A stretch of DNA of 64,000 nt. Source: Planotetraspora kaengkrachanensis. GTDB taxonomy: Bacteria; Actinomycetota; Actinomycetes; Streptosporangiales; Streptosporangiaceae. Positions 30,340 through 43,671 of the stretch are shown here, one piece after another. The DNA is taken from contig NZ_BONV01000010.1 of NCBI RefSeq assembly GCF_016862895.1, positions 62,001 through 126,000 of the forward strand, read 5' to 3'. The first letter of the stretch is position 1. Every line of letters starts with the position of its first letter. Position numbers and translations under genes: made by a program. The notes under the pieces were generated by a model that had not been told where the DNA came from, did no database searches, and was given only the letters and a program-made list of their open reading frames with translations.

Positions 30340-30684
30340 CCTTCGGAGACGGGTGCCTCAGCGAGAACTAGGCGGGCACCCGGAGGTTGATGGACGGCAT
30401 GCTCGTCAGAAAGACCCGCATGTTCCTCACCTCCCACAGCTCCGAGGCCGCGTTCGAAGCGGCGTTGCCAGAACCCTACGGAGCCCCCGACCGCTCCGCA
30501 ACCCACTTTTCCCCGCACACTTTTTTGGGGGTGATCATGCACAGATTCGCCGAAAGGCCCTCCGCCTGCGGCGTTCCCCGCCGTGATCATGCACAGATTC
30601 GGCCCGGTCACCGCTGACCAGGCGATTGCCTCAGCGTGATCATGCACAGGTTCCGGGGAACCTGCGCATGATCACGCCCGGAGG
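30340..30684. other. Intergenic region between rsgA and glyA
   Basis: This 345-bp gap contains the rsgA promoter region (right of 30340) and, from 30531, the first locus of the 53-bp repeat family. A short T-run, ACTTTTTTGGGG (30519-30530), precedes the first repeat. No convincing ORF is present. Confidence 0.6.
30531..30675 (+). repeat. 53-bp phased repeat family, locus A
   Basis: Plus-oriented copies of GTGATCATGCACAGATTCG start at 30531 and 30583, and GTGATCATGCACAGGTTCC starts at 30636, that is 52 and 53 bp apart. The third copy faces an inverted copy (30657-30675, ending CATGATCAC) with a 2-base loop. The pair forms a 19-bp stem with one mismatch only 9 bp from the glyA stop. The tails between copies share fragments such as CCTGCGGC with locus C. 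Confidence 0.9.
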
Positions 30685-31944
30685 TCAGGAGAGGCCAGGG
30701 GCGGGGAACTGGGCCGTGAGGTCGCTGACCTCACGGTGGACCCGAGCGATCACGTCCTCGGCGTCGCCCTTGGCCAGGGCCGTGACGACCTCGTCGATCC
30801 AGGCGCCGATCTGCCGCATCTCCGCCTCGCCCATGCCCCGCGACGTCACCGACGGCGTGCCGATCCGGATGCCGGAGGGGTCGAACGGCTTGCGCGGGTC
30901 GAAGGGCACCGTGTTGTAGTTCGTCTCCAGGCCGGCCCGGTCGAGAGCCTGAGCGGCCGGCTTGCCGCCGATCCCCTTGGGCGTGAGGTCCATCAGGATC
31001 AGGTGGTTGTCGGTGCCGCCGGAGACGAGGTCGAACCCCCTGCCCGCCAGCTCGTCGGCGAGCGCCTGGGCGTTCTTCACGACCTGCGCGGCGTAGGCCT
31101 TGAAGTCTGGCTGGGCGGCCTCGTGAAGGGCCACCGCGATGGCGGCGGTCGTGTGGTTGTGCGGTCCGCCCTGCAGACCCGGGAACACGGCCTTGTTGAG
31201 GGCGGTCGCGTGCTCGTCCGAGGTCGCCATCAGCATGGCGCCACGCGGGCCGCGAAGGGTCTTGTGCGTCGTGGTGGAGATCACGTCGGCGTGGCCGACC
31301 GGCGAGGGGTGGGCGCCGCCCGCGACGAGGCCGGCGATGTGCGCGATGTCGGCCGCCAGGACCGCCCCGACCTCACGCGCGATCTCGGCGAACGCCGGGA
31401 AGTCGATCGTGCGCGGGATCGCGGTGCCGCCACAGAAGATCAGCTTGGGCCGGTGCTCCAGAGCCAGCGCGCGGACCTCGTCCATGTCGATGCGGCCGGT
31501 GTCCTTGCGCACGCCGTACCGGACGGCGTTGAACCACTTGCCGGTGGCCGAGACCGACCAGCCGTGGGTGAGGTGGCCGCCGAACGGGAGGCCCATGCCC
31601 AGCACGGTGTCACCGGGGTTCAGGAACGCCAGGTAGATCGCCAGGTTCGCGGGCGATCCCGAGTACGGCTGGACGTTGGCGTGGTTCACGCCGAACAGCG
31701 ACTTGGCCCGCTCCACGGCCAGAGTCTCGATCTGGTCGATGACCTGCTGGCCCTCGTAGTAACGCTTGCCCGCGTAACCCTCGGAGTACTTGTTCGTGAG
31801 AACCGTCCCCGTGGCCTCGAGAACGGCCTTGGACACGTAGTTCTCGGACGCGATGAGCTTGACCGTGTCGGCCTGCCGTCGTTCCTCTGCCGCGATGAGC
31901 CCGGCGAGTTCGGGATCGACGGCGTTCAGCGAGTTCCCAGCCAT
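30685..31944 (-). CDS. glyA: Serine hydroxymethyltransferase
   Basis: This PLP enzyme interconverts serine and glycine and loads one-carbon units on tetrahydrofolate. It has 419 residues, close to the family norm, with KLIASENYVSKAVLEATG near 28, NVQPYSGSPANLAIY near 95, the PLP lysine block STTTHKTLRGPRGAM near 225 and SGIRIGTPSVTSRGM near 355. ATG 31944 follows AAGGAAG. The long leader is a ZTP riboswitch. A repeat hairpin lies just past the stop. Confidence 0.97.
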   Translation of the reverse strand: MAGNSLNAVDPELAGLIAAEERRQADTVKLIASENYVSKAVLEATGTVLTNKYSEGYAGKRYYEGQQVIDQIETLAVERAKSLFGVNHANVQPYSGSPANLAIYLAFLNPGDTVLGMGLPFGGHLTHGWSVSATGKWFNAVRYGVRKDTGRIDMDEVRALALEHRPKLIFCGGTAIPRTIDFPAFAEIAREVGAVLAADIAHIAGLVAGGAHPSPVGHADVISTTTHKTLRGPRGAMLMATSDEHATALNKAVFPGLQGGPHNHTTAAIAVALHEAAQPDFKAYAAQVVKNAQALADELAGRGFDLVSGGTDNHLILMDLTPKGIGGKPAAQALDRAGLETNYNTVPFDPRKPFDPSGIRIGTPSVTSRGMGEAEMRQIGAWIDEVVTALAKGDAEDVIARVHREVSDLTAQFPAPGLS

Positions 31945-31969
31945 GGCGCTTCCTTGTCCGTATCGGCGG

Positions 31970-32072
31970 TGACGGCGGCCCAGGCGCACGGCCTCCGCGA
32001 GAATGCTCCCCGGTGGTGACCCACCTTCGACGCGGCCCCTCGGGGACACGTCAGCGCCAGTCGCGACTTCCC
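31970..32072 (-). ncRNA. ZTP (pfl) riboswitch in glyA leader
   Basis: On the minus strand the leader reads GTCGCGACTGGCG (32068-32056), then a variable stem, GGTGGGTCACCACCGGGGAGCA near 32027-32006, and GCCGTGCGCCTGGGC near 31992-31978. These are the conserved blocks of the pfl motif (GACUGGCG, ACCACCGGGGAGC, CGCCUGGGC), which senses ZTP/ZMP and commonly precedes one-carbon genes such as glyA. Boundaries are approximate. A -10-like TAAAGT lies immediately upstream at 32079-32074, beside the stop of the preceding kinase gene. Confidence 0.88.
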
Positions 32073-32100
32073 TACTTTATCGGGAGCGGTCCGGTACGGC

Positions 32101-33579
32101 TCACCCATCCGTGATTGGGATGTCGGGAATGAGGCCGAATCCGGGGATGTCGACGCCGACCGTCTCCACGCTCTCCGGCACGTCGGAATAGCTCGCGTAG
32201 ACGGCCAGGGTGTCCCCGGACTTCAGCCACTGCTTGGGCATCGAGGTGCACAGGCAGTCGCCGTCCTTGCTCGCCGGGGTGAACTTCGATCCGCTGGGCG
32301 CGTCGATGAGGCTGACTCCGGAGGCCGCGTCACCGAACAGGTCTCCCGGCCACCACTGCTTGGCGCCGCTCACCTGGACCGAGAACCGGACGCTCACGGA
32401 GGTCCCCTGCCGCGTCGCCGCGTCGATGGTCGCCTTGAGGGGGATGCCGCTGATCTGCACGTCATGGGTCGCCAGCGGACCGCTCGGGTTCTCCTTCTCG
32501 CCCAGGCCGAACGGATGGAAAACCACGACGGCCGTCACCGCCACCGCGACGGCGGCGACCGCTCCGGCCAGCACGGCCGGGAGCCGGCGGCGTGACACGG
32601 CACCGGCCTGGGACGTACGGCCCGCCGCGTCCCCGGCGGCCGGCGCGGCGGCCGAGCGCACGGTGCCGCCGGAGTCCGGGCCGGCCCCGTCCGGCTCCGG
32701 GCTGGTCCACGCCTCGCTCACGATCCGGGTGGCGGCCTCGACGGCGACCTCCTCCCGGCCGAGCAGCCGGTCGAGGAGCTCCTGCGCCGACGGCCTCCGC
32801 TCGTGGTCCTTGTCGAGGGCCCTCTCGACGAGCGGCCGCAGGCGTTCGTCCAGCCCCCGGAGCTCGGGCACGTGGTGGGCGACCCGGAACAGCACCTCGG
32901 GTGTGCTCCCACGGCCGAACGGCGGCCGCCCGGTGCCCGCGTACCCGACGACGCATCCCCACGCGAAGACGTCGGCCGCGGCGGTCACCGTCTCGCCCCG
33001 CGCCTGCTCCGGCGACATGTAGCTCGGCGTCCCGATCACCGTCCCGGTCTGCTCCGCCAGGGTGTCCGCGAGCTGGGCGATGCCGAAGTCGATCACCCGG
33101 GGGCCGACCGGCGCCAGCAGGATGTTGGACGGCTTGAGATCGCGGTGGACCACCCCCGCCCGGTGGATGGCCGCCAGCGCCGTCGCCACTCCCACCGCGA
33201 GCGCGTCGAGGTTGGAGCCGCTCATGGGCCCCTGCGCCTCCACCACCGCGGACAGGTCGGGACCTTCGACGTACTCCGTGACCAGGTAGGCCTGCTCGCC
33301 GTCCAGACCGGCGTCGAGGAGGGGCGCCGTGCAGAAGCGGGCGACGCGCTTGGCGGCCTCGGCCTCCTTGCGGAACCGGCTCCTGAACTGCTCCTGCGAC
33401 GCGAGCTCGGGCCGCATCACCTTCACGGCGACCTGCCGCCCCGCGGCGTCGTGGGCGAGGTAGACGATCCCCATACCGCCCTCGCCGAGCCGGCGGACCG
33501 GGACGTACGGACCGATCGTCCTGCGGGCGACCGGCGTCGTGTCCTCTGCGGATGGCTGCGCGTTCATCGCAGACATCAT
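32101..33579 (-). CDS. Hanks-type Ser/Thr protein kinase with single membrane span
   Basis: This 492-residue kinase has GEGGMGIVYLAHD, VAVKVMRPE, HRDLKPSNILL, DFGIAQLAD and GTPSYMSPEQARGE in order within residues 30-200. After an acidic, Ala-rich linker there is one membrane span near residue 345 (LAGAVAAVAVAVTAVVVF). An extracytoplasmic domain of about 120 residues follows, with SVSVRFSVQVSGAKQWWPGD and the pair CLC; I do not recognise it. Start is ATG 33579 or 33567. The kinase ends 157 bp before glyA, whose promoter sits at its 3' edge. Confidence 0.92.
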   Translation of the reverse strand: MMSAMNAQPSAEDTTPVARRTIGPYVPVRRLGEGGMGIVYLAHDAAGRQVAVKVMRPELASQEQFRSRFRKEAEAAKRVARFCTAPLLDAGLDGEQAYLVTEYVEGPDLSAVVEAQGPMSGSNLDALAVGVATALAAIHRAGVVHRDLKPSNILLAPVGPRVIDFGIAQLADTLAEQTGTVIGTPSYMSPEQARGETVTAAADVFAWGCVVGYAGTGRPPFGRGSTPEVLFRVAHHVPELRGLDERLRPLVERALDKDHERRPSAQELLDRLLGREEVAVEAATRIVSEAWTSPEPDGAGPDSGGTVRSAAAPAAGDAAGRTSQAGAVSRRRLPAVLAGAVAAVAVAVTAVVVFHPFGLGEKENPSGPLATHDVQISGIPLKATIDAATRQGTSVSVRFSVQVSGAKQWWPGDLFGDAASGVSLIDAPSGSKFTPASKDGDCLCTSMPKQWLKSGDTLAVYASYSDVPESVETVGVDIPGFGLIPDIPITDG

Positions 33580-33636
33580 TACGGATCACCCGTCGTTTCG
33601 CGACAAATCAGGCCACGCCGGGGATCGGTTGATCGT

Positions 33637-34587
33637 TCAGCCGGATCGCTCGTGGCGGGCCGTGCCGTTCAGGGGCCACATCCGGTCCACTTCGGCGTTC
33701 AGTGTGGCGCCGATCAGCACGGCGAGGGCGGTGATGTACAGCCACAGCAGCACGGCGATCGGGGCGGCCAGCGATCCGTAGATCGACAGCGGCGTGAACC
33801 AGGCGGCCAGCACCTCGCGGAGAACGGTCGCGCAGAGGATCCAGATGATCAGAGCGAGGACGGCCCCTGGCGTCTCACGCCACCAGCGCGTCCGCCTCGG
33901 AACGCTCACGTGGTAGAGCAGCGTGAGCATCAGGACCGATCCGACGATGACCACAGGCCAGTAGAAGACCGCGACGAGCACGCCGTACCGGCTGAGGGCG
34001 TTGGACAGCAGCGTGGGCCCGATCACCAGGGTGGGCATGATGACGAGGCCGATCAGGAGCGCGGCCACGTACAGGCCGAACGACATGACCCGGGTGCGGA
34101 TGATCCCGCGCGTCTCCCCCAGGCCGTACGCGATGGAGATCAGGTCGACGTACACGAACAGCGCGCGGGAGCCCGACCACAACGACAGCAGGAAGCCGAC
34201 GGAGATCAGCGACACCTGGCCGCCGGTCAGCACGTCGTTGAGCAGGGGCGTGACCACCCGGTCCACGGTGTTGCTGGTGAACAGCAGTTCGGCCTGGTCG
34301 ACGACCCACTGCTTGATCTCCAGGACGGTGTCCGCGCCGAGCATCCCGCTCAGGTGGCCCATGACGCCGAGCAGCCCCAGGACGAAGGGCGGCAGCGACA
34401 GCAGCGCGAAGAAGGCCGCCTCACCCGCGAGGCCGGTCACGCGGTAGTTGACGCCCGCCATGGTGGTCGCCTTCACCAGTGCCCAGCCGCTGGTGTCGCG
34501 GACCCAGCTCATGCGGGCACGGGCCCGCGCCATCGCCAGGCGTGAGACATGCCTGGGCCTGCGCGTCGAAGCGTCCGTGGACGTCAT
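33637..34587 (-). CDS. YihY/BrkB-family inner membrane protein
   Basis: This 316-residue protein has about six membrane spans and the YihY family pattern: GLAGEAAFFALLSLPPFVLGLLG near residue 53, LWSGSRALFVYVDLISIAYG near residue 135, and the C-terminal WFTPLSIYGSLAAPIAVLLWLYI near residue 270. ATG 34587 is preferred over an upstream in-frame start because it begins the hydrophilic arm normal to the family. It lies 57 bp upstream of the kinase gene on the same strand. The function of the family is not settled. Confidence 0.88.
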   Translation of the reverse strand: MTSTDASTRRPRHVSRLAMARARARMSWVRDTSGWALVKATTMAGVNYRVTGLAGEAAFFALLSLPPFVLGLLGVMGHLSGMLGADTVLEIKQWVVDQAELLFTSNTVDRVVTPLLNDVLTGGQVSLISVGFLLSLWSGSRALFVYVDLISIAYGLGETRGIIRTRVMSFGLYVAALLIGLVIMPTLVIGPTLLSNALSRYGVLVAVFYWPVVIVGSVLMLTLLYHVSVPRRTRWWRETPGAVLALIIWILCATVLREVLAAWFTPLSIYGSLAAPIAVLLWLYITALAVLIGATLNAEVDRMWPLNGTARHERSG

Positions 34588-34747
34588 GGCACCCAACCGT
34601 ATACACACAGTGATGGCGTCCGCGGCTCAGCGTGATCTTTCATGCGAACACCGGCTGTTAGATCTGAGCACTACCCGCATCCGGCGCGAATACCGCCGCC
34701 CGGCTCGGCCCGGGCCTCGACGCCGTCGTCAGGCCAAGGATAGGGGG

Positions 34748-35572
34748 TCATACCCGGCGTTTCGCCAATGCCGGGGTGTTCCCGGGACTCCGGCCTGCTC
34801 CCGGCGGCCCGGCGAACGCCTGCGCGATCTTCAGCCACGCCGTCGCCGTGGCGCCCGCGGCCTCGAGAGCGGTGTCGTCGAGATGACAGCGCTGAGTGAC
34901 CAGCAGGCAGAAGTCGAGCGCCGGTCCGCGGACGACGTCGTCGGCCCCGGCGGGCCCGGCCGTCCACACGTCGCCGCCGGGCAGGGTCAGCTCGACGCGC
35001 ACCGGGTCGGAGGGGAGCGCGAGGCCGCGCACCGCGAAGCCGTACGGCAGGGCGCGCACGCCCAGGCTCGCCACGTGCCGCAGGCGGACGCTCGGCACCC
35101 GGGCGATCCCGAGCGCGTCGGCCACGTCCTGGCCGTGCGCCCACGTCTCCATCAGGCGAGCCGTCGCGGACGACGCCGCCGACATGTCGGGCCCGTACCA
35201 GGGCACCCTCAGGCGGGGGTCGGTCCGCTCGAACTCCCCGATCATGCGGGCGCGGGCCGTCACGAATCCGTCCATGAGCTCGCGGGGGCTGCGGCGGTCG
35301 GCGTGCGCCAGCTCGTCGATGAACGACTCGCCCTTGGCGAGCAGGCCGTCCCTGGCGGCGCGGAACCCGCCGGGGTCGGTCAGCGCGCGGGTCGCCGCTT
35401 CGTCGAACCACGCCAGATGACTGATCTGATCCCGTACGGCCCAGCCGGCCGCCGGGGTCGGCAGGTCCCAGCCGGCGGCGTCGAGGTTCTCGACCATCCC
35501 GGCGAGGTCGGCCGTCTCCGCCCGGAGGTCGGCGACGAGTTCGGCCATGAGCCCGGATCCTGTGACACCCAT
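34748..35572 (-). CDS. TIGR03084-type maleylpyruvate isomerase/DinB-fold protein
   Basis: This 274-residue protein has the DinB/MDMPI fold. GWAVRDQISHLAWFDEAA near residue 42 provides the first metal-type His, and ETWAHGQDVADALG near residue 142 provides the second. It belongs to the actinobacterial group thought to use mycothiol. ATG 35572 has GGGAG 5 bp upstream; GTG 35575 is too close to that site. Reaction unknown. Confidence 0.85.
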   Translation of the reverse strand: MGVTGSGLMAELVADLRAETADLAGMVENLDAAGWDLPTPAAGWAVRDQISHLAWFDEAATRALTDPGGFRAARDGLLAKGESFIDELAHADRRSPRELMDGFVTARARMIGEFERTDPRLRVPWYGPDMSAASSATARLMETWAHGQDVADALGIARVPSVRLRHVASLGVRALPYGFAVRGLALPSDPVRVELTLPGGDVWTAGPAGADDVVRGPALDFCLLVTQRCHLDDTALEAAGATATAWLKIAQAFAGPPGAGRSPGNTPALAKRRV

Positions 35573-35644
35573 CACATCTCCCGTGACAGACCCGCCGGCG
35601 ACAGGCGGCTCACGTCAGCGTAACCGGCGGAGAACAATGAAGAC

Positions 35645-35776
35645 ATGATCTGCGAAGCGTGCAAGGACCGCAGGCACGACGACTGCAGGGGCGGGTCGTG
35701 GTGCGACTGCCAGCATCAGGAGCGGCCGGACGGCCGGCGGACCGAGCCGCCGGAGAACTGGGTGAGTCAGGGGTGA
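35645..35776 (+). CDS. Small Cys-rich protein (43 aa)
   Basis: This short gene encodes 43 residues beginning MICEACKDRRHDDC and continuing RGGSWCDCQHQ, with five Cys and two His in the first 25 residues. The pattern suggests a small zinc-binding knuckle. I have the impression that such proteins are widespread in actinobacteria but know no function. GGAG precedes the ATG by about 11 bases. It lies between the DinB-fold gene and the sulfite reductase leader. Confidence 0.7.
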   Translation: MICEACKDRRHDDCRGGSWCDCQHQERPDGRRTEPPENWVSQG

Positions 35777-35872
35777 CGACCCGTCTCGCCTGGAGAAATG
35801 AACGAAAGATTACAGTCCCGCATCGTGGACACGAACTTGGACATCTGGGATCTCCGAGGTATCGTCTAGGAC

Positions 35873-35956
35873 ATGCCAGCGGACCCACTGCTCGTCGTGC
35901 GACGTCACGTCGACCTTCTGCGCGTCCGTAGTGCCATCTGTATCGACGCCGGCTGA
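35873..35956 (+). CDS. Actinobacterial Cys leader peptide upstream of sir
   Basis: A 27-codon frame ends in RRHVDLLRVRSAIC plus IDAG and a stop. It matches the RxHVDLxRxxSxxC pattern of the putative leader peptides seen ahead of sulfur-assimilation genes in actinobacteria. Translation through the Cys codon (TGT at 35939) would report cysteine supply and adjust expression of the genes downstream. After the stop, GCATG...CATGC (35981-36004) flanks a CTTTTT run and could form a switchable hairpin. The regulatory link is inference. Confidence 0.75.
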   Translation: MPADPLLVVRRHVDLLRVRSAICIDAG

Positions 35957-36100
35957 CCGCTCCCACTGTTGACCCGGGGCGCATGGCAGGCGTCTTTTTC
36001 ATGCCCTCACACTCGATGACGAGGTGAGAGGCCGCCTGTCCCCGCGCGTCCCGGACCGTAGTCCGATGCTCAGACCGATCACTCGGAAAAGGACGTGCCC

Positions 36101-37783
36101 ATGAGCACCCCGGCCCGCCCGGCGAACCGCCACCACAAGCGCCCACGCGGCGAAGGACAGTGGGCTCTCGGTTACCGTGAGCCGCTGAACAAGAACGAGG
36201 AGAACAAGAAGAACGACGACGGGCTCAACGTCCGTCAGCGGATCATCGACGTCTACTCGAAGCGTGGTTTCGACTCGATCGACCCGGCCGACCTCCGGGG
36301 GCGGTTCCGGTGGTTCGGGCTGTACACCCAGCGCCGGCCCGGGATCGACGGCGGCAAGACGGCCATCCTCGAGCCCGAGGAGCTCGACGACCGCTACTTC
36401 ATGCTCCGCGTCCGGATCGACGGCGGCCAGCTCAGCCTGGAGCAGCTCCGGGTGATCGCCGACATCTCCAACGAGTACGGCAGGGGCACGGCCGACATCA
36501 CCGACCGGCAGAACATCCAGTTGCACTGGATCGAGGTCGAGGCGGTCCCCGACATCTGGGAGCGGCTGGAGGCCGTCGGCCTGTCGACGATGGAGGCCTG
36601 TGGTGACACGCCCCGTGTCATCCTGGGCTGCCCGCTCGCCGGCATCGACGCCGACGAGGTGATCGACGGCACCGTCCAGATCCACGAGATCAACGAGCGC
36701 TACATCGGGAGCCCGGAGTTCTCCAACCTCCCCAGGAAGTTCAAGTCGGCGATCAGCGGCTGCACGGCACACTGCACCGTCCACGAGATCAACGACATCG
36801 CCTTCGTCGGCGTCGTGAACGAGCAGGGCGAGCAGGGCTTCGACGTCTGGGTGGGCGGCGGCCTGTCGACCAACCCGATGTTCGCCAAGCGGCTCGGCGC
36901 GTTCGTCCGGCCCGAGCAGGTCCACGAGGTCTGGGCGGGGATCTGCGGCATCTTCCGCGACTACGGCTACCGCCGCCTGCGCCATCGGGCCAGGATCAAG
37001 TTCCTGGTCAGCGACTGGGGGGCGGAGAAGTTCCGGCAGACCCTCGAGACCGAGTACCTGCACTACGCGCTGGCCGACGGCCCGGCTCCCGAGCTGCCCC
37101 GCGGCGGCCGCCGCGACCACGTGGGCGTCCACCCGCAGCGCGACGGCAACTTCTACGTCGGTTTCGCCCCCAAGGTCGGCCGGGTCGACGGCGACAAGCT
37201 CCACGAGATCGCCGACATCGCCGAGCGCCACGGCGCGACGCGGGTGCGGACGACGGTCGAGCAGAAGATGGTCGTCCTCGACGTCGCGCCCGACCAGGTG
37301 GAGTCGATCGTCAGGGAACTCGAGGCGGCCGACCTCCAGGTCAACCCCTCGACCTTCCGCCGCCAGACCATGGCGTGCACCGGCATCGAGTTCTGCAAGC
37401 TGGCGATCGTCGAGACCAAGGCCACGGCCTCCGACCTGATCGACGAGCTGGAGAAGCGGCTCCCCGACTTCTCCGAGCCGCTGACCATCAACGTCAACGG
37501 CTGCCCCAACTCCTGCGCCCGCATCCAGGTCGCCGACATCGGGCTGAAGGGCCAGCTGGTCACCAACGACAAGGGCGAGCAGGTCGAGGGCTTCCAGGTC
37601 CACCTGGGCGGGTCCGTCGGCCTCAACCCCAACTTCGGGCGGAAGGTCCGCGGGCTGAAGGCCACCGCCGAGGAGCTGCCCGACTACGTGGAGCGCGTGG
37701 TCCGGAACTTCGAGAAGCAGAAGAACGAGGGCGAGACCTTCAGCGAGTGGGTCCAGCGCGCCGACGAGGCCGACCTCAAATGA
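36101..37783 (+). CDS. sir: Ferredoxin-dependent nitrite/sulfite reductase
   Basis: This is a siroheme/4Fe-4S enzyme of 560 residues that makes the six-electron reduction of sulfite to sulfide or nitrite to ammonia. The cluster ligands are visible as ACTGIEFCKLA near residue 425 and NGCPNSCARIQ near residue 467. The two ferredoxin-like repeats begin at GLYTQRRPGIDGG and VGVHPQRDG, and TDRQNIQLHWI lies near residue 140. ATG 36101 follows AAAAGGA by 6-7 bp. The neighbours cysH and a sirohydrochlorin chelatase (which makes siroheme precursor) and the Cys leader argue for sulfite as the main substrate. Confidence 0.94.
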   Translation: MSTPARPANRHHKRPRGEGQWALGYREPLNKNEENKKNDDGLNVRQRIIDVYSKRGFDSIDPADLRGRFRWFGLYTQRRPGIDGGKTAILEPEELDDRYFMLRVRIDGGQLSLEQLRVIADISNEYGRGTADITDRQNIQLHWIEVEAVPDIWERLEAVGLSTMEACGDTPRVILGCPLAGIDADEVIDGTVQIHEINERYIGSPEFSNLPRKFKSAISGCTAHCTVHEINDIAFVGVVNEQGEQGFDVWVGGGLSTNPMFAKRLGAFVRPEQVHEVWAGICGIFRDYGYRRLRHRARIKFLVSDWGAEKFRQTLETEYLHYALADGPAPELPRGGRRDHVGVHPQRDGNFYVGFAPKVGRVDGDKLHEIADIAERHGATRVRTTVEQKMVVLDVAPDQVESIVRELEAADLQVNPSTFRRQTMACTGIEFCKLAIVETKATASDLIDELEKRLPDFSEPLTINVNGCPNSCARIQVADIGLKGQLVTNDKGEQVEGFQVHLGGSVGLNPNFGRKVRGLKATAEELPDYVERVVRNFEKQKNEGETFSEWVQRADEADLK

Positions 37784-37932
37784 GCGAGAGAGCGGCGCCG
37801 TTCTACTGCCCGTACTGCGGCGAGGAGGACCTCGAGCCGTACGTCACCGAGGAGGAGAGCTACGGGTGGTACTGCCGCTCCTGCGCCCGGGCCTTCCGGG
37901 TGAAGTTCCTCGGTCTGGGCGTCCGTTCGTGA
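37780..37932 (+). CDS. Small zinc-ribbon protein (50 aa)
   Basis: A 50-residue protein carries two CxxC knuckles, FYCPYCGEEDL and WYCRSCARAF, forming a zinc ribbon. Its ATG overlaps the sir stop by 4 bp, so it is translated with the reductase. The tight coupling suggests a partner role in sulfite reduction, but nothing in the sequence shows what it does. Confidence 0.85.
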   Translation: MSERAAPFYCPYCGEEDLEPYVTEEESYGWYCRSCARAFRVKFLGLGVRS

Positions 37933-37977
37933 CGAGCCTAAAAGCGATCTTAGAGAAATGACGTTTGAGGAGTAGCG

Positions 37978-38706
37978 ATGACCGTCGTGGAGATAGAGGC
38001 CAACCTACAACGCCAGCGGGTGACGCTCGACCTGCAGAGCATCGTCGAGTCCGCGGCCGAGTTCCTTGAGGACGCGCCCGCGCGTGAGATCATCCGCTGG
38101 GCCGCCGCCACGTTCGGCGACCGTCTCTGTCTCACGTCCTCGATGAGCGACGCGCTGCTGATCGATCTGGTCAGCCGGGTCAAGCCCGGCGTGGACGTGC
38201 TGTTCATCGACACCGGCTACCACTTCGCGGAGACCATCGGCACGCGTGACGCCGTACGCCAGGTCTACGACGTCAATGTGATCGACATTCAGCCGTCGCG
38301 GACGGTGGCCGAGCAGGATCGCGACCTCGGCCCCCGGTTGTTCGGCCGCAACCCTGACCTGTGCTGCTACCTGCGCAAGGTGGAGCCGCTCAACCGGGCG
38401 CTCGAGCCGTACCTGGCCTGGATCTCGGGCATCCGCCGCGACGAGTCGCCCACCCGGACGAACACCAAGGTCGTCGAGTGGGACGCCAAGCGGCAGATGG
38501 TCAAGGTCAACCCGATCGCCCGGTGGACGCAGGAGGAGGTCGACAACTACATCGCGGACAACGGTGTGCTGATCAACCCGCTGCACTACGACAACTACCC
38601 CTCGATCGGCTGCGGGCCCTGCACCCGTCAGGTCGCGCCCGGCGAGGACCCGCGGAGCGGCCGCTGGGCGGGCCTCGGCAAGATCGAGTGCGGCATCCAC
38701 CTCTGA
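37978..38706 (+). CDS. cysH: Phosphoadenylyl/adenylyl-sulfate reductase
   Basis: This 242-residue enzyme reduces activated sulfate to sulfite, the step before sir. The P-loop-like LCLTSSMSDALLIDLV is near residue 50. Two Cys pairs, DLCCYLRKVEPL near residue 128 and GCGPCTRQV near residue 213, mark the 4Fe-4S form that uses adenylyl sulfate (APS). The C-terminal ECGIHL carries the catalytic Cys. No cysDN is in the window. It is followed by an extreme G-run and a repeat locus. Confidence 0.95.
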   Translation: MTVVEIEANLQRQRVTLDLQSIVESAAEFLEDAPAREIIRWAAATFGDRLCLTSSMSDALLIDLVSRVKPGVDVLFIDTGYHFAETIGTRDAVRQVYDVNVIDIQPSRTVAEQDRDLGPRLFGRNPDLCCYLRKVEPLNRALEPYLAWISGIRRDESPTRTNTKVVEWDAKRQMVKVNPIARWTQEEVDNYIADNGVLINPLHYDNYPSIGCGPCTRQVAPGEDPRSGRWAGLGKIECGIHL

Positions 38707-38720
38707 CCCCCCACCCCGCC

Positions 38721-38746
38721 GGGGGCGGGGGGCGGGGGGCGGGGGG
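38721..38746 (+). other. Four-tract G-run, candidate G-quadruplex
   Basis: Four runs of G (lengths 5, 6, 6 and 6), each separated by a single C, follow the cysH stop by 14 bp. This is an ideal G-quadruplex pattern with one-base loops on the coding strand. The C-run before it (CCCCCCACCCCGCC) could pair with it as a competing hairpin. It may act as a transcription or decay barrier between cysH and the chelatase. Confidence 0.75.
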
Positions 38747-38747
38747 C

Positions 38748-38870
38748 GTGATCATGCACAGGTTCGGAGAAACGGCCACTGACCTGCTCCTCCACCGGAC
38801 GTGATCATGCGCGAATTCGTGAAAACACCCGACTACCAGGCGGAACTCCACTCGTGACCATGCACAGCCG
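38748..38870 (+). repeat. 53-bp phased repeat family, locus B
   Basis: Copies start at 38748 (GTGATCATGCACAGGTTCG, exact consensus), 38801 (GTGATCATGCGCGAATTCG) and 38854 (GTGACCATGCACAGCCG, degenerate), each 53 bp apart. The third copy contains the GTG and ATG that can start the chelatase gene. Confidence 0.9.
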
Positions 38871-39612
38871 TCCAGCCGACCGGGCACCGCTGATCGCGGT
38901 GGCGCACGGGTCCCGCGACCCGCGCGCCGCCGCGACGGTGGAGGAACTCGTGCACGCCGTACGGCTGCGCGAGCCCGGTCTCGAGGTCAGGACGGCCTAC
39001 CTCGATCACGCCCCGCCGACGCTGGCGTCGGCCCTGTGCGGCCTGGACGAGGCCGTCGTCCTCCCTCTGCTTCTCACCGCGGCCTACCACAGCCGGGTGG
39101 ACATCCCCGCCGCGCTGCGTGAGGCGTCCGCGCGCCGCCCGAGACTCCAGGTCGCGTACGGTGACACCCTCGGGCCGCACCCGCTCCTCGTCGGGGCGCT
39201 CGAACGCCGGCTCGCCGAGGCCGGGGTGACGCCGGGCGACCCGGGCACCGCCGTGGTCCTCGTGTCCGCGGGCTCCAGCGACCGGCGGGCCAACCTCGTG
39301 ATCGCCCGGATGGCCCGTGAATGGGCGCGGGCGCGCCCCTGGTGGTCGGTCACCGAGGCCTTCGCCTCCGCCGCCGCCCCCACCCCGGAACAGGAGGTGG
39401 CGCGGCTCAGGCGCGCCGGAGCGCCCAGGGTCGTCGTCGCCCCCTACCTGCTGGCGCCGGGCCACTTCGCCGACAAGGTCGCGCGCGACACCCGGGAGGC
39501 CGGAGCCGACGTGGTCGCCGGCGTCCTCGGGGCCGCCCCAGAAATCGTCAGCGTCGTCCTCGAAAGGTACGGCCAGGCCGTACGGCGCCCGGCTGCCGTC
39601 GCGACCGCCTGA
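38854..39612 (+). CDS. Sirohydrochlorin chelatase (CbiX/SirB type)
   Basis: This 252-residue protein is the class II chelatase that inserts iron (or cobalt) into sirohydrochlorin on the way to siroheme, the cofactor of the upstream Sir. It opens APLIAVAHGSRDPRA with the metal His, has LPLLLTAAYHSRVDIP near residue 70, and has a second related half (VVLVSAGSSDRRAN, then PYLLAPGHFADKV) as in the two-domain form. GTG 38854 or ATG 38860 is the start; both lie inside a copy of the 53-bp repeat, so the first codons derive from repeat sequence. Confidence 0.88.
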   Translation: MTMHSRPADRAPLIAVAHGSRDPRAAATVEELVHAVRLREPGLEVRTAYLDHAPPTLASALCGLDEAVVLPLLLTAAYHSRVDIPAALREASARRPRLQVAYGDTLGPHPLLVGALERRLAEAGVTPGDPGTAVVLVSAGSSDRRANLVIARMAREWARARPWWSVTEAFASAAAPTPEQEVARLRRAGAPRVVVAPYLLAPGHFADKVARDTREAGADVVAGVLGAAPEIVSVVLERYGQAVRRPAAVATA

Positions 39613-39669
39613 GGCGTGTCACGCGGATCCCGATGGCGCCCGCGCGGGCCTGCTTTCAGCCGCGCGGGC

Positions 39670-40320
39670 CTACTTCAGCCGGGCCACGGCCTCGGCGATC
39701 CCGTCGCCGGTCAGCCCGCCCGGTCCTGTCCGCCGTCCCGTGGCGAGGAGGAGCAGGTCGCCGGACGGTCCCCGCACCTCCCGCGGACCGTCGCCGGCCG
39801 CCCAATCGGCGTCGCTGGCGACGAACCGCAGCCCGGCGAAGCGCTTGCGCGTGCCGTAGAAGAAGCTGTCCCACACGTGCCGCAGCACCGGCAGCACCCG
39901 TTCGGCGGGCATCGGGCGCTCTCTGCCGAGCGGCCGGGCGATGTCCTGCCCGTGCACCAGGATGTCGGTCAGCGGGTCCAGTGAGCCGCTCATCGGGAAC
40001 CGCCGGGGCCGCCCCGCCGTTTCCCGCAACTGTGTGACGAGTTCGGCGGGGCTGTAGCGGAGGGCCCGTTCGCGGGCCATGTCCGCGGTCGCCCCGTCGA
40101 AGTCGCCGCGAACCCGGATCACCCGGAGCATCGTGGCGGTGAACTCGCGATCGGCGAGCGTGAGATGAGCGACCACGTCGCGGACGGTCCAGCCGGCGCA
40201 CAGCGACTGCACCTGCCATTCGCGGTCGTCGAGTGTGTCGAGAAGGCCGGCGAGATCGAGCCGTTCGGCCTCCACATCGGCCACCATGGCGACGCGGGTG
40301 CGGCGGGGAGGTTCGCTCAT
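39670..40320 (-). CDS. Maleylpyruvate isomerase family mycothiol-dependent-type enzyme
   Basis: This 216-residue DinB-fold protein of the TIGR03083 type has CAGWTVRDVVAHLTLADREF near residue 42 and DPLTDILVHGQDIARPLGR near residue 117, supplying the metal-binding His residues. GAGGAG precedes ATG 40320; the long open frame upstream is low-complexity shadow. Such enzymes use mycothiol or detoxify electrophiles, but the substrate is unknown. Confidence 0.86.
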   Translation of the reverse strand: MSEPPRRTRVAMVADVEAERLDLAGLLDTLDDREWQVQSLCAGWTVRDVVAHLTLADREFTATMLRVIRVRGDFDGATADMARERALRYSPAELVTQLRETAGRPRRFPMSGSLDPLTDILVHGQDIARPLGRERPMPAERVLPVLRHVWDSFFYGTRKRFAGLRFVASDADWAAGDGPREVRGPSGDLLLLATGRRTGPGGLTGDGIAEAVARLK

Positions 40321-40412
40321 GACGGGGCTCCTCGGGCGGATCAGCGTCTGGGTCGCCGGAGGTGGCGCCGGCGATCTCCCCCAGACCGCCATCGAAGATC
40401 CACGGACACTAC

Positions 40413-41324
40413 TCAGTAGGGCGCGGAAGGCGGGGGGTCGCCCTGGCGCCCCTCCCGCCAGGCGTCGCGCTCCTCGCGGCGGGACTCCCTGCGGGCCTCC
40501 TGGTCGTCGCGCATCATCTGCCGGCGGACCTCCCGCTCGCCTCGCATGGCGTCGCGGAACCCGTGGCGGAACTCCCTTTGGGCGTCCCTGTGGGCCTGCA
40601 TCATCTCGCGGTGGGCCTGGCGGCCCATCTCGATCGACTGGCGGATGTCCCGATGGATCTGGTGGCGCCCCTCCTTGCGGCGGTCCCACCACCACTCACT
40701 CCAGGCGAACCATCCCCGCTTGATGGGCGTGGCCAGCGAGTCACCGATGATCTTCACATCGCCCATGAGGACGAAGGCCTTGACCTTGACGACGGGGGCG
40801 TTCTGGCCGGCCGGCGCCTCCACCACCTGGACCTTCTTGTCGCCCATGATGGCCACGCCGGAAAGCTGTACGTCGACGCCGTCCGGCACAATGATCTTCA
40901 GGTCGCCCATGACGCAGGTGGCCGTGATCTCCACCTCGGGCGTGCGCACCTCGGCTTCCCGGAGGTCGAGCGTCACGTCGCCCATCACGCTGACGGCGCC
41001 GATCTCCTGGTCGATGCGCCAGGTGCCGTTGCGCTTGGCGTCGCCCATGACCGCCACGACCCAGGTCCGGACCTTGCCCATGGGCTTGACCGGCTGAGGG
41101 CCGGGGCCGGGGGTGGGTCCGGGGGCCGGGGCTCCGCCGGGCAGATCAGTGGTGAGCTGGGCGAGCTCCGCGTGGGTCCGGGCCAGATAGGCCGCCTCGG
41201 TCCGCTCGGTCAGCTCGGCGAGGGTCAGCCGACCTTCGACCGAGGCCTCGCGAAGTCTTTCGACCACTTGCTCCCGTTCCGCGTCGGAAGCACGCATCTC
41301 ACCCGGATCACTCACGGCGTCCAC
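40413..41324 (-). CDS. DUF1707 protein with MGD beta repeats and charged C-terminal tail
   Basis: This protein has up to 303 residues. MRASDAEREQVVERLREA begins the DUF1707 domain (to about residue 60). A Pro/Gly linker is followed by five strands each carrying MGD (VAVMGDAKR, VSVMGDVTL, CVMGDLKII, AIMGDKKVQV, VLMGDVKII) that resemble the LiaF-type beta repeat of cell-envelope stress proteins. The last 90 residues are almost all Arg, Glu, Gln, His and Asp, in a long predicted helix. No membrane span is evident. The start may be GTG 41324 or GTG 41315. Confidence 0.85.
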   Translation of the reverse strand: MDAVSDPGEMRASDAEREQVVERLREASVEGRLTLAELTERTEAAYLARTHAELAQLTTDLPGGAPAPGPTPGPGPQPVKPMGKVRTWVVAVMGDAKRNGTWRIDQEIGAVSVMGDVTLDLREAEVRTPEVEITATCVMGDLKIIVPDGVDVQLSGVAIMGDKKVQVVEAPAGQNAPVVKVKAFVLMGDVKIIGDSLATPIKRGWFAWSEWWWDRRKEGRHQIHRDIRQSIEMGRQAHREMMQAHRDAQREFRHGFRDAMRGEREVRRQMMRDDQEARRESRREERDAWREGRQGDPPPSAPY

Positions 41325-41514
41325 GCTATCCCGACAGACGCGATCGACCTATCCTCCCTGGGAAGGAATCCGATTCTCCCAGGGGACGAACTTCGTGCCC
41401 GCCGCGCCTGACGGCCGCCGGGTGTGATCGCGGAGTTATTCCCGTCGACCCCCGCATTTCATCATCCACTTGAAATGTTGAGATGGATGGCGAGGACCCG
41501 GACAGGAGGCCCAA

Positions 41515-43119
41515 GTGACCCACGACGTGATCAACCAGGCACCGCCGCTGATCGGGCACGACGTGTCGAACGACCGCGCCCTGCTCGACGGGCTGGACCG
41601 GGAGGGCGCGGACTGGGCGACCGGGGAGCTCCGACAGCTCGGCCTGCTGGCCGGTTCCGCGAAGGCCCAGGACTGGGGACGGCTGGCCAACGAGAACCCG
41701 CCGATCCTGCGGACGCACGACCGGTACGGCAACCGCGTCGACGAGGTGGAGTTCCACCCAGCGTGGCACGAGCTGGTGGCCGTCGCGGTCGCGAACGGCA
41801 TGCACGCCTCCCCGTGGACCTCCGCCCGGCCCGGCGCCCACGTGGCCAGGGCCGCGAAGTTCTTCACCTGGTCACAGGTCGAGGCGGGGCACGGCTGCCC
41901 GATCTCCATGACGTACGCCGCGGTGGCGGCGCTCAGGCACTCCCCCGACCTCAGGTCCGAGTGGGAGCCTCTGCTCGCCTCCCGGAGTTACGACTACGGG
42001 CTCAGGCCCGCGCACGACAAGCGCGGCGTGCTGGCCGGCATGGCCATGACCGAGAAGCAGGGCGGATCCGACGTCCGCGCCAACACCACCAGGGCCGAGC
42101 GGCTCGGCGACGGCACGTTCGCCCTGACCGGCCACAAGTGGTTCAACTCCGCGCCGATGTGCGACGTCTTCCTCGTCCTGGCCCAGGCTCCCGGCGGGCT
42201 TTCGTGCTTCCTGCTGCCCCGCGTGCTCCCGGACGGCTCCCGCAACGCGATGCGGCTCATGCGGCTGAAGGACAAGCTGGGCAACCGGTCGAACGCCTCG
42301 GCCGAGGTGGAGTACGACGGCGCCATCGCCTACCTCGTCGGCGAGGAGGGGCGAGGCGTCCGCACGATCATCGAGATGGTCAACATGACCCGGCTCGACT
42401 GCGTGATCGGCTCGGCGGCCGGCATGCGGTACGGCCTGGCCCAGGCGATCCATCACACCACCCACCGCAAGGCCTTCGGCAAGCCCCTCATCGAGCAGCC
42501 GTTGATGCGGAACGTGCTCGCCGACCTGGCCCTGGAGTCCGAGGCGGCGACCACGCTGATGATGCGCCTGGCGGGCGCCACCGACCGCGCGGTGCGCGGC
42601 GACGCCGCCGAGGGACTGTTCCGCCGTACGGCACTCGCCGCATCGAAGTACTGGATCTGCAAGCGGGCCCCCGTCCACGCCGCCGAGGCGCTCGAGTGCC
42701 TGGGCGGCAACGGGTACGTCGAGGAGTCGCAGATGCCGCGGCTGTTCCGCGACTCGCCGCTCAACGGCATCTGGGAGGGCTCGGGCAACGTCGCGGCGCT
42801 CGATCTCGTCCGGGCGCTCACCCGGGAGCCGGAGGGGCTGGAGGCGTTCTTCGCCGAGGTCGCGCTGGCCGGCGACCGCCGGGTGACCGACGCCGCCGAA
42901 CGGGCGCGCAAGACGCTCGCGTCGGCCGGGGAGGGCGATGCCAGGCGCCTGGCCGAGGAGCTCACGCTGCTGCTCCAGGCGTCCCTGCTCGTACGGCACG
43001 CTCCCGCGGCGGTGGCGGACGCGTTCTGCGCCTCCCGGCTCGGCGGCGAATGGGGAAGGGCCTTCGGGACGCTACCGACCGGCCTCAACCTGGAGTCGAT
43101 AATCGAACGAGCATCCTGA
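41515..43119 (+). CDS. AidB-like acyl-CoA dehydrogenase family protein
   Basis: This 534-residue flavoprotein is of the AidB branch, with a long N-terminal part absent from ordinary acyl-CoA dehydrogenases. It has NQAPPLIGHDVSNDRALLDG near residue 6, the FAD block MAMTEKQGGSDVRAN near residue 175 and ECLGGNGYVEESQMPRLFRD near residue 400. E. coli AidB binds DNA and is linked to alkylation defence, but dehydrogenase activity on a physiological substrate is unclear. AGGAGG precedes GTG 41515. The stop is 9 bp before the first copy of repeat locus C. Confidence 0.92.
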   Translation: MTHDVINQAPPLIGHDVSNDRALLDGLDREGADWATGELRQLGLLAGSAKAQDWGRLANENPPILRTHDRYGNRVDEVEFHPAWHELVAVAVANGMHASPWTSARPGAHVARAAKFFTWSQVEAGHGCPISMTYAAVAALRHSPDLRSEWEPLLASRSYDYGLRPAHDKRGVLAGMAMTEKQGGSDVRANTTRAERLGDGTFALTGHKWFNSAPMCDVFLVLAQAPGGLSCFLLPRVLPDGSRNAMRLMRLKDKLGNRSNASAEVEYDGAIAYLVGEEGRGVRTIIEMVNMTRLDCVIGSAAGMRYGLAQAIHHTTHRKAFGKPLIEQPLMRNVLADLALESEAATTLMMRLAGATDRAVRGDAAEGLFRRTALAASKYWICKRAPVHAAEALECLGGNGYVEESQMPRLFRDSPLNGIWEGSGNVAALDLVRALTREPEGLEAFFAEVALAGDRRVTDAAERARKTLASAGEGDARRLAEELTLLLQASLLVRHAPAAVADAFCASRLGGEWGRAFGTLPTGLNLESIIERAS

Positions 43120-43128
43120 GCCCGTGCC

Positions 43129-43671
43129 ATGATCATGCACGAACTCACGGCGCGTGATCATGCACTTCTCGGGCGTGATCACGCACTTCTCGGGCGTGAT
43201 CATGCACAGGTTCGTGATCACGCCTCGCGACCTGCGCCCGCCCCCTTCGTGATCATGCACGGATTCGCGATCATGCCTCGCGACCTGCGGCTTCGCCGTA
43301 CGTGATCAGGCACGACTTCGCGATCATTCGGGATGAACAGGGGTTTCAGTCAGGGTGATCATGCAGGCGAGAAGCGCTCGTTCCGACAGAGCGCGAAGAC
43401 TCCTGCATGATCACGCACAGGGAAGCCGCAGGTCCGCACGGCCCCACGCGAAAGTGTGCATGATCACAAACTGCGTCGTCGCAGGTCACGGACCACGCCA
43501 ACGAACTCGTGCATGATCACCCGCGAGGAGAGCGGGGGCTGGGCATCGAAGCCATGCATGATCACACCCAAGATTTGGGCTGCTCAGAGGGCACATCCAC
43601 GAACCTGTGCATGATCACCACCAACAGGGGGGCAGGGTGGGAGGGGCTTGGGCGAACCTGTGCATGATCAC
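43129..43671. repeat. 53-bp phased repeat family, locus C (array with orientation switch)
   Basis: This 613-bp gap (43120-43732) is filled by about 16 copies. Plus copies start at 43129, 43154, 43175, 43196, 43249, 43302 and 43355, with weaker half-copies at 43214, 43267 and 43320. From 43404 on all copies are inverted (GTGCATGATCAC type), with TGATCA cores at 43408, 43461, 43514, 43559, 43612 and 43665. Core spacing is 53 bp in almost every step, also across the switch (52). The copies at 43196 (plus), 43600 and 43653 (inverted) are exact to GTGATCATGCACAGGTTCG. The units at 43196 and 43249 are alike over most of their 53 bp. No ORF of substance is present. Confidence 0.93.

Follow-up and report, generated by a model that had tools for sequence, protein, structure and literature searches.

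What are the evenly spaced repeats that stand between genes in the actinomycete Planotetraspora kaengkrachanensis, and what might they do there? The question is raised by a 64,000-nucleotide stretch of contig NZ_BONV01000010.1 (positions 62,001 to 126,000, forward strand; "the window" below), in which a short sequence, here called the head, recurs at steps of 53 bp in three intergenic loci. A preliminary description made from the letters of the window had taken these loci for a dispersed repeat family and had left two proposals, an array of binding sites for a protein or a decayed tandem element. Followed through the source genome (8.77 Mb, 96 contigs) and its relatives, the heads form arrays that often lie directly behind stop codons, at gene ends where the usual intrinsic-terminator hairpin is missing as a group, and they resemble the box of the arginine repressor ArgR. 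It is quite possible, if short of probable, that these are phased protein arrays acting as boundary or transcription-end elements. The link to gene ends and to hairpin loss goes beyond anything the preliminary description had claimed.

A 53-bp ruler and the parts of an array

A genome scan for a 53-bp peak and an intergenic bias had been proposed as the check on the family, and both are present. The window's genome has 652 exact copies of the 12-mer GTGATCATGCAC (320 + 332) and 149 + 149 pairs of exact copies stand 53 bp apart, with 0 for the reversed control in either count. In three stretches picked without regard to spacing (400 kb of the same genome, 382 kb of Planotetraspora mira and the window itself), 119 of 134 distances below 400 bp between neighboring same-strand heads with at most one mismatch are exactly 53 bp. 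This is the figure to trust, since the named loci were found through a 53-bp pair; over all sets, loci chosen for a pair included, 53 bp accounts for 419 of the 461 distances that do not exceed 200 bp. Heads lie mostly outside genes as called by a codon-usage gene finder: none of the 20 window heads with at most one mismatch falls inside a predicted gene, and in two other stretches 5 of 76 and 10 of 88 do, counts that take in stray single heads and overlaps at gene edges. A search of a named genome collection matched at least 88 stretches, all from Planotetraspora among the matches listed; 78 of 88 named loci in the tables were used, L119 and L152 (P. mira contig duplicates) and L185-L192 being left out. 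The three intergenic loci first noticed are thus correct for the window and an understatement beyond it, for the stretches of six genomes hold 121.

The unit, defined as a head with the next head at exactly 53 bp, is conserved in places and free elsewhere, and 461 of 464 units are distinct. Positions 1-10 are 98-100% fixed, and positions 16-18 (TTC), 34-37, 39, and 53 are also conserved. The head consists of the core GTGATCATGCA and a lineage-specific second half, in Planotetraspora mostly CAGGTTCG; its conserved length is 11-19 bp, and it is an imperfect palindrome around TGATCA. A complete site comprises this head, a second block near positions 34-40 (GACCTGC, which is not ArgR-like), and the next head. 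Because each complete site reaches into the next head, an array ends in a bare closing head and is made of n-1 units plus that head; in 160 arrays of at least three heads, the last head lacks, as a group, both the TTC at 16-18 and the later block. Two arrays are held by 53 of the 121 loci, and all 53 pairs face each other, with a center of exactly 35 bp in 14 of 49 facing pairs. Extra GATCA cores occur 18 or 19 bp into the unit in 34 and 11 of the 464 units, respectively. The blocks CAGGTTCGG and CCGACCTG look stem-like, but the top pairs show no compensatory pairing over the 464 units, the strongest mutual information being that of neighboring bases, and shuffled sequences fold as well as the units do (mean z -0.16, 120 units). 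Neither covariation nor folding, then, supports an RNA hairpin as the unit.

Comparison of sister species shows what is kept. Between the window's genome and P. mira (genome G003, also G3), 16 array pairs at matching positions give 55 orthologous unit pairs, identical at 0.96-1.00 of sites 1-10 and at about 0.53 of free sites, where random expectation, without register choice, is 0.31; under the same register choice orthologous arrays score 0.54 and non-orthologous arrays 0.42 (p 2e-9, 17 pairs). Another genome (G001, also G1) is most likely P. thailandica, as it has a unit identical to one in locus L165. Compared with P. mira it shows 86% nucleotide identity in aligned blocks, and 10 of its 16 arrays in 310 kb correspond in place to a P. 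mira array, two of them to the same one. In non-closing heads, position 12 is C in 60 of 61 cases in P. mira and G in 33 of 34 in P. thailandica, and positions 13-15 read AAG in 29 of the 34 P. thailandica heads versus AGG in 28 of the 61 P. mira heads. One shared locus has largely kept its unit sequence (0.85 at free sites) and is clearly the same array, with positions 12-15 changed in place in both units; the other seven pairs have spacers near background (0.38 to 0.50, against a non-orthologous median of 0.42). Since one change is common to nearly all sites examined, the concerted change between species is best explained by a trans-acting recognizer, and it points to a sequence-specific factor that would act on duplex DNA or, less likely, on RNA.

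Arrays at gene ends and the missing hairpin

Arrays are concentrated where transcription units meet. Among 143 arrays with both neighbors known, 61 lie in convergent gaps and 9 in divergent gaps, the remainder being tandem, as against 59 and 110 of 363 background gaps (80-1000 bp in the three stretches, array-bearing gaps included). Within 80 nt of stop codons, the nearest array head shares the gene's direction in 90 cases and opposes it in 21, and in 25 of the 90 co-directional cases the TGA of GTGATCA is the gene's own stop codon. That arrays follow the direction of transcription generally was considered and rejected: 105 run with it and 54 against, but convergent gaps force the former and tandem gaps are even. 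Co-directional orientation is claimed near stops only. The genes beside arrays are ordinary and of mixed function, and the eight that are flanked by facing heads are unrelated by appearance. In two places, P. mira 270256-270422 and G1 269070-269183, one head apparently supplies a putative stop codon, and in the former the closing head apparently supplies the putative ATG of the next gene.

Hairpins at gene ends were scored as the best 44-nt hairpin in the 100 nt after the stop, relative to shuffles that keep base content only, with array-bearing ends drawn from all sets and arrayless controls from the window, G0, and G3. Where the array is co-directional (90 ends), the median excess is 0.0 and only 3% fall below -25, which does not fit an intrinsic terminator behind the stop. 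The excess is -3.0 at 105 arrayless convergent ends (p 2.3e-6 versus co-directional array ends) and -2.3 at 193 arrayless tandem ends (p 1.5e-5), and the 21 ends with an opposing array keep their hairpins (-2.6). Directly behind stops with a co-directional array, then, the usual intrinsic-terminator hairpin is missing as a group.

The end of aroF offers the same comparison at a single gene. Heads stand there in six of six genomes, namely the five members of the genus and Planotetraspora sp. A-T 1434 (G105), which the taxonomy used sets in another genus; five of the six have 53-bp arrays, and P. phitsanulokensis has one head each way. A further 24 genomes were searched, and no head with at most one mismatch was found at this end in any of them. 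Of these 24 headless relatives, 20 have a hairpin below -25 kcal/mol; of the six head-bearing genomes, none does.

A candidate protein and competing explanations

The head may also be asked what protein could read it. A Streptomyces coelicolor fragment containing the box CTCTCCGTGATCATGCACCC, which holds the head's 13 letters, is described as shifted by ArgR, and the published ARG boxes are described as imperfect palindromes of about 20 nt that stand singly or in contiguous pairs, mostly upstream of genes (PMC5839063). With a matrix built from 36 of the S. coelicolor boxes given there, the head-containing box left out, the median score of Planotetraspora units is 8.6 bits where the register is that of the head and at most 4.3 in any other, compared with 10.9 bits for genuine ArgR boxes left out one at a time; none of 2000 letter-shuffled versions of the head scores as high as the head. 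Medians for exact heads are 8.3 bits in the window, 9.9 in G0, 9.7 in G3, and 11.8 in G1, and 13.2 and 10.0 in G373 and G432, two other genomes of the class. Heads make up 30 of 75 of all 20-mers at 10 bits or more in G0, 31 of 71 in G3, 32 of 72 in G1, 53 of 80 in G373, and 22 of 48 in G432. Because the head is an ArgR-box-like palindrome and a fragment containing these 13 letters was bound by ArgR, the lead candidate for the binding protein is ArgR itself or a relative of like specificity, an assignment that could well be right and to which we give almost even weight; shared specificity of this kind would explain the same core in several families. One locus with an ArgR motif was found in the DNA examined. 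In P. phitsanulokensis (G002), the array at locus L121 (heads 1120, 1173, and 1226) follows argR (568-1092) and precedes the argininosuccinate lyase gene, a neighborhood that is suggestive and may be chance given the many arrays per genome. That no named element fits, as first stated, thus holds for the array; the head itself resembles the named ArgR box.

The proposal of an array of protein-binding sites is well supported, by conservation without pairing, the ruler, the concerted change, the ArgR-box score, and a similar conservation of the exact 11-mer in arrays running against the upstream gene (0.77) and with it (0.80). From these observations, together with the anatomy, the placement, and the hairpin deficit, we infer a protein that acts on DNA rather than RNA and takes part in the ending of transcription. 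In the textbook account, hairpins or Rho bring bacterial transcription to an end. In the proposed scheme, one sequence-specific DNA-binding protein would tile the DNA in 53-bp steps of about five helical turns, and the arrays would mark where one transcription unit gives way to the next, in many cases immediately after a stop codon; the bound, phased protein would form a boundary that stops or pauses RNA polymerase as it leaves the gene, and so would do the job of the intrinsic terminator hairpin. Such a mechanism is plausible because, in other systems, protein-bound DNA can block the polymerase, as described for LacI roadblocks (PMC4132739), and H-NS filaments are described as able to aid termination (PMC4337669). 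If true, it would amount to a further way of ending transcription, or at least a new boundary system; were the protein ArgR, a repressor long familiar from metabolism would turn out to have an architectural role as well. A named candidate makes array binding testable, and the concerted change of sites between sister species would be a natural experiment on a protein co-evolving with hundreds of sites. The fuller version, in which arrays of ArgR or another protein replace hairpin terminators and co-evolve with it through lineage dialects, and in which CGTGATCATGCA versions arose in or moved across actinobacterial families, is offered tentatively and is on the doubtful side.

Several results weigh against the boundary proposal. 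The opposing-array ends number only 21, and their direct contrast with co-directional ends is not significant (p 0.14). Over the whole gap, a hairpin below -25 is still present in 44% of the facing arrays (n = 55) and 29% of the solitary ones (n = 35), and array-bearing sequence is less GC-rich (0.637 versus 0.73). At aroF just 15 of the 24 headless ends stand out against shuffles (z -2.4 or lower), and headed ends range in z from -2.2 to 1.5, the one at -2.2 approaching them. In G373 headed ends have the weaker hairpins in raw terms (p 0.001), but this difference from headless ends vanishes relative to shuffles, and in G432 and a further class genome, G579, the two kinds of end do not differ in their hairpins. 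Orientation counts against it as well: tandem gaps show no preference (36 with transcription, 37 against), solitary arrays divide 17 with and 11 against (p 0.34), and part of the excess of 90 over 21 is not independent because convergent geometry forces an array to run with the gene. In the window, a G+C-rich stretch before array B (38748-38865, plus strand) could itself terminate. As to the protein, G579 heads score just 5.6 bits, the published description does not place ARG boxes 53 bp apart behind genes, and the closing heads of P. thailandica mostly retain C at position 12 (11 of 16).

The main rival would have the arrays organize the chromosome, in nucleoid architecture or segregation, through any protein, gene ends being where they do least harm. 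It is somewhat unlikely. In its favor, every paired locus faces inward, tandem gaps show no orientation preference, arrays against the upstream gene are about as well conserved as those with it, and the spread is uneven, with 73 exact heads on contig C1 and 3 on C2 (raw counts, not scaled to size). ArgR is, moreover, an architectural factor in plasmid recombination. Taken alone, chromosome organization leaves unexplained both the loss of hairpins at co-directional arrays and the frequency with which the TGA of a head is a stop codon. If ArgR is the protein, the arrays might instead be an enlarged regulon, or decoys that titrate the repressor, serving an arginine response or buffering with no part in transcription end; the head score and the array beside argR fit this, but arrays avoid the divergent gaps that hold promoters, neighboring genes are mixed in function, and the boxes as published come without the 53-bp ruler, the GACCTGC block, and the closing head, so that we rate it as decidedly unlikely.

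A mobile element, with the arrays as terminal inverted repeats of sub-repeats that spread by copying or as transposase sites, is also unlikely, though the gain and loss of arrays is suggestive. At four junctions viewed, a whole array is present in G1 and absent in G3: at one, G3 has 12 bp between two convergent stops where G1 has 378 bp, and at another the genes overlap by 4 bp in G3 and lie 189 bp apart in G1. Arrays are patchy among families and within a genus, they face each other, and at L134 the facing arrays 2227 (+) and 4241 (-), about 2 kb apart on either side of a gene, have units with a likeness of 0.88 at variable sites, such as gene conversion or inversion might leave. Yet no close donor was found in G1 for the array in the 189-bp gap among the best 40 of 235 candidates scored, where non-self matches of at least 100 bases reach about 73-80% and a shorter one, of 73 bases, reaches 85%, the conserved sites being present in them; hardly any two units are the same; no Y1 transposase was matched in G000, G002, G003, or G004; IMG/VR has no exact pair at 53 bp; and the best matches in plasmid and phage records have E of at least 0.1 among the matches listed. 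An RNA element of the 3' untranslated region, read in the transcript as a Rho-loading or mRNA-stability signal, we consider very unlikely. It would suit the position directly behind stops and the leader between stop and first head, which has C at 0.554 and G at 0.193 (54 arrays; 0.398 and 0.333 at 82 arrayless convergent ends), a C-rich, G-poor composition that recalls Rho-loading sites. The leader is C-rich as well before arrays lying against the upstream gene (C 0.475, G 0.216), pairing covariation and folding excess are absent, a 53-nt ruler in so many steps is hard to account for in RNA, and the head resembles a double-stranded protein site. The decayed tandem element of the preliminary description is scarcely credible as a functionless remnant: local near-copies of units were found in each of four species examined, including 10 of 63 units in G000, but heads are frozen where spacers drift, heads have changed in concert, and the search for a close donor found none among its best 40 of 235.

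Known systems, relatives, and the arrays of the window

Known repeat families share parts of this layout. Among named elements STAR of Staphylococcus aureus comes closest in anatomy; it is described as interspersed intergenic direct repeats with a 14-bp core and, in the locus described, spacers of 40-44 bp, few copies per locus, a distinct final spacer, and no function assigned in print (PMC3532100). The likeness lies in the short intergenic core and spacers of about 40 bp. As described, the spacers of one STAR locus often differ hardly at all, and species do not share STAR locations, unlike the arrays here, whose units are nearly all different, whose locations are shared, which face each other, and whose heads change in concert; the STAR core T(G/A/T)TGTTG(G/T)GGCCC(C/A) with at most two mismatches has one match in the window, against 1.96 expected by chance. 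Repetitive extragenic palindromes and bacterial interspersed mosaic elements (REP/BIME) with their REP-associated tyrosine transposase (RAYT) are likewise dispersed, intergenic, near gene ends, and found as inverted pairs, but the arrays stand on a 53-bp ruler without an internal unit hairpin, the head itself being a short imperfect palindrome. A search for the transposase (PF01797, E 0.001) gave 0 matches in G000, G002, G003, and G004 (P. silvatica) and four in G001. A protein roadblock is known from the ends of ribosomal DNA, where TTF-I stops RNA polymerase behind the gene; as described, TTF-I and LacI roadblocks belong to other organisms or built constructs and offer a works-like analogy only, unlike arrays at many gene ends of one bacterial genome with predicted binding. 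The DNA uptake sequences of Neisseriaceae and Pasteurellaceae occur in hundreds of copies, with lineage dialects and inverted pairs near terminators; heads here are instead phased at 53 bp and mostly intergenic. BldC of Streptomyces, described as binding direct repeats as cooperative multimers and regulating development genes (PMC5859096), is, from that description, a comparable actinobacterial direct-repeat binder. ARG boxes remain the closest match to the head, which fits their model at about the level of genuine boxes; closing head, GACCTGC block, lineage-specific second halves, and gene-border sites set the arrays apart.

Other identities were considered and set aside. Successive units are not near-identical, as they would be in a tandem repeat of the mycobacterial interspersed repetitive unit-variable number tandem repeat (MIRU-VNTR) kind, and in a CRISPR the short conserved head and the conserved GACCTGC block in the part between heads would be out of place. 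The six genes that flank the window arrays are not cas genes; cas genes elsewhere were not searched. Miniature inverted-repeat transposable elements or transposon ends are not indicated, as no near-identical copies of a species-specific array were found among the best 40 of 235 candidates. Phage, plasmid, and virus carriers gave no convincing match, four virus contigs having one head each. In limited literature searches such arrays were not found described. What appears to be new is the array system as a whole, in its ruler, closing head, facing rule, hairpin deficit, and dialects; the head block is ArgR-like and the layout STAR-like.

The head is present in all five Planotetraspora genus genomes, and paired heads with at most three mismatches over both occur in 15 genomes of six genera among 341 of the family, with a reversed control of 0 throughout; two of the 15 are weak cases, G314 (two matches that are copies of one sequence) and G130 (two matches). 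Other genera have GTGATCTTGCA or TTCC variants on the same ruler. CGTGATCATGCA is enriched in few of 384 class genomes: G000 has 612, G373 288, G432 287, G579 100, G371 35, G491 29, G414 22, and G111 20, the others at most 8. In G373, G432, and G579, with 400 kb examined in each, other second halves follow the same core, the spacing is not strictly 53 bp, and heads are mostly intergenic, with 6 of 57, 1 of 43, and 1 of 12 in genes, respectively. A phylum-wide search with CGTGATC pairs was dominated by coding background, the query being too short. In another family member, GTGATCTTGCT..AAGATCA pairs stand at 53 bp (G134, contig C5, 82497 and 249786), perhaps as a hairpin-like variant. DUF222-HNH proteins were rejected as the agent, since DUF222 occurs in 12 of 12 genomes, the headless G388 among them, and heads lie near its genes in few loci, mainly in G432, the genes being mostly headless elsewhere. 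In the 400 kb of G432, four of five DUF222-HNH genes have a GTGATCATGCA head 130-200 bp upstream (contig C1, heads 37782, 83268, 280890, and 336450).

Within the window, all ten head starts listed in the preliminary description were correct on re-scanning, and the 19-mer with at most three mismatches has 12 matches against 0 in 100 dinucleotide-preserving shuffles. Array A (30531-30647, plus strand) has heads at 30531, 30583, and 30636 (steps 52 and 53), that is, two full units and a last head, which here still has AGGTTC. It is faced by a single minus-strand head with one mismatch at 30664-30675; the SHMT-family gene 30685-31944, also on the minus strand, ends about 10 bp away. Array B, with heads at 38748, 38801, and 38854 (steps 53 and 53), follows the PAPS-reductase-family gene 37978-38706. 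Its last head, GTGACCATGCAC, overlaps a possible start, in the list of open reading frames, of the following CbiX-family gene, and to that extent qualifies the earlier statement that the gaps are gene-free, which otherwise agrees with the absence of window heads from predicted genes.

The third locus begins about 10 bp past the stop of the AidB-like acyl-CoA dehydrogenase gene 41515-43119, where plus-strand heads at 43129, 43154, and 43175 (43129-43186; steps 25 and 21) lie between the gene end and the phased part of array C. The plus half of that array (43196-43366) has heads at 43196, 43249, 43302, and 43355 in three steps of 53, the last being a bare closing head; the minus half (43403-43671) faces it with heads ending at 43671, 43618, 43565, 43520, 43467, and 43414, and also finishes in a closing head. 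The inverted half was said to continue the 53-bp step, which it does in four steps of five (53, 53, 45, 53, 53 from 43671 to 43414), the third being a 45-bp break. The center between the two facing closing heads, 43355-43414, measures 60 bp from outer edge to outer edge. Elsewhere in the window, a ZMP/ZTP riboswitch (RF01750) lies at 31971-32074 on the minus strand, just upstream of the SHMT-family gene.

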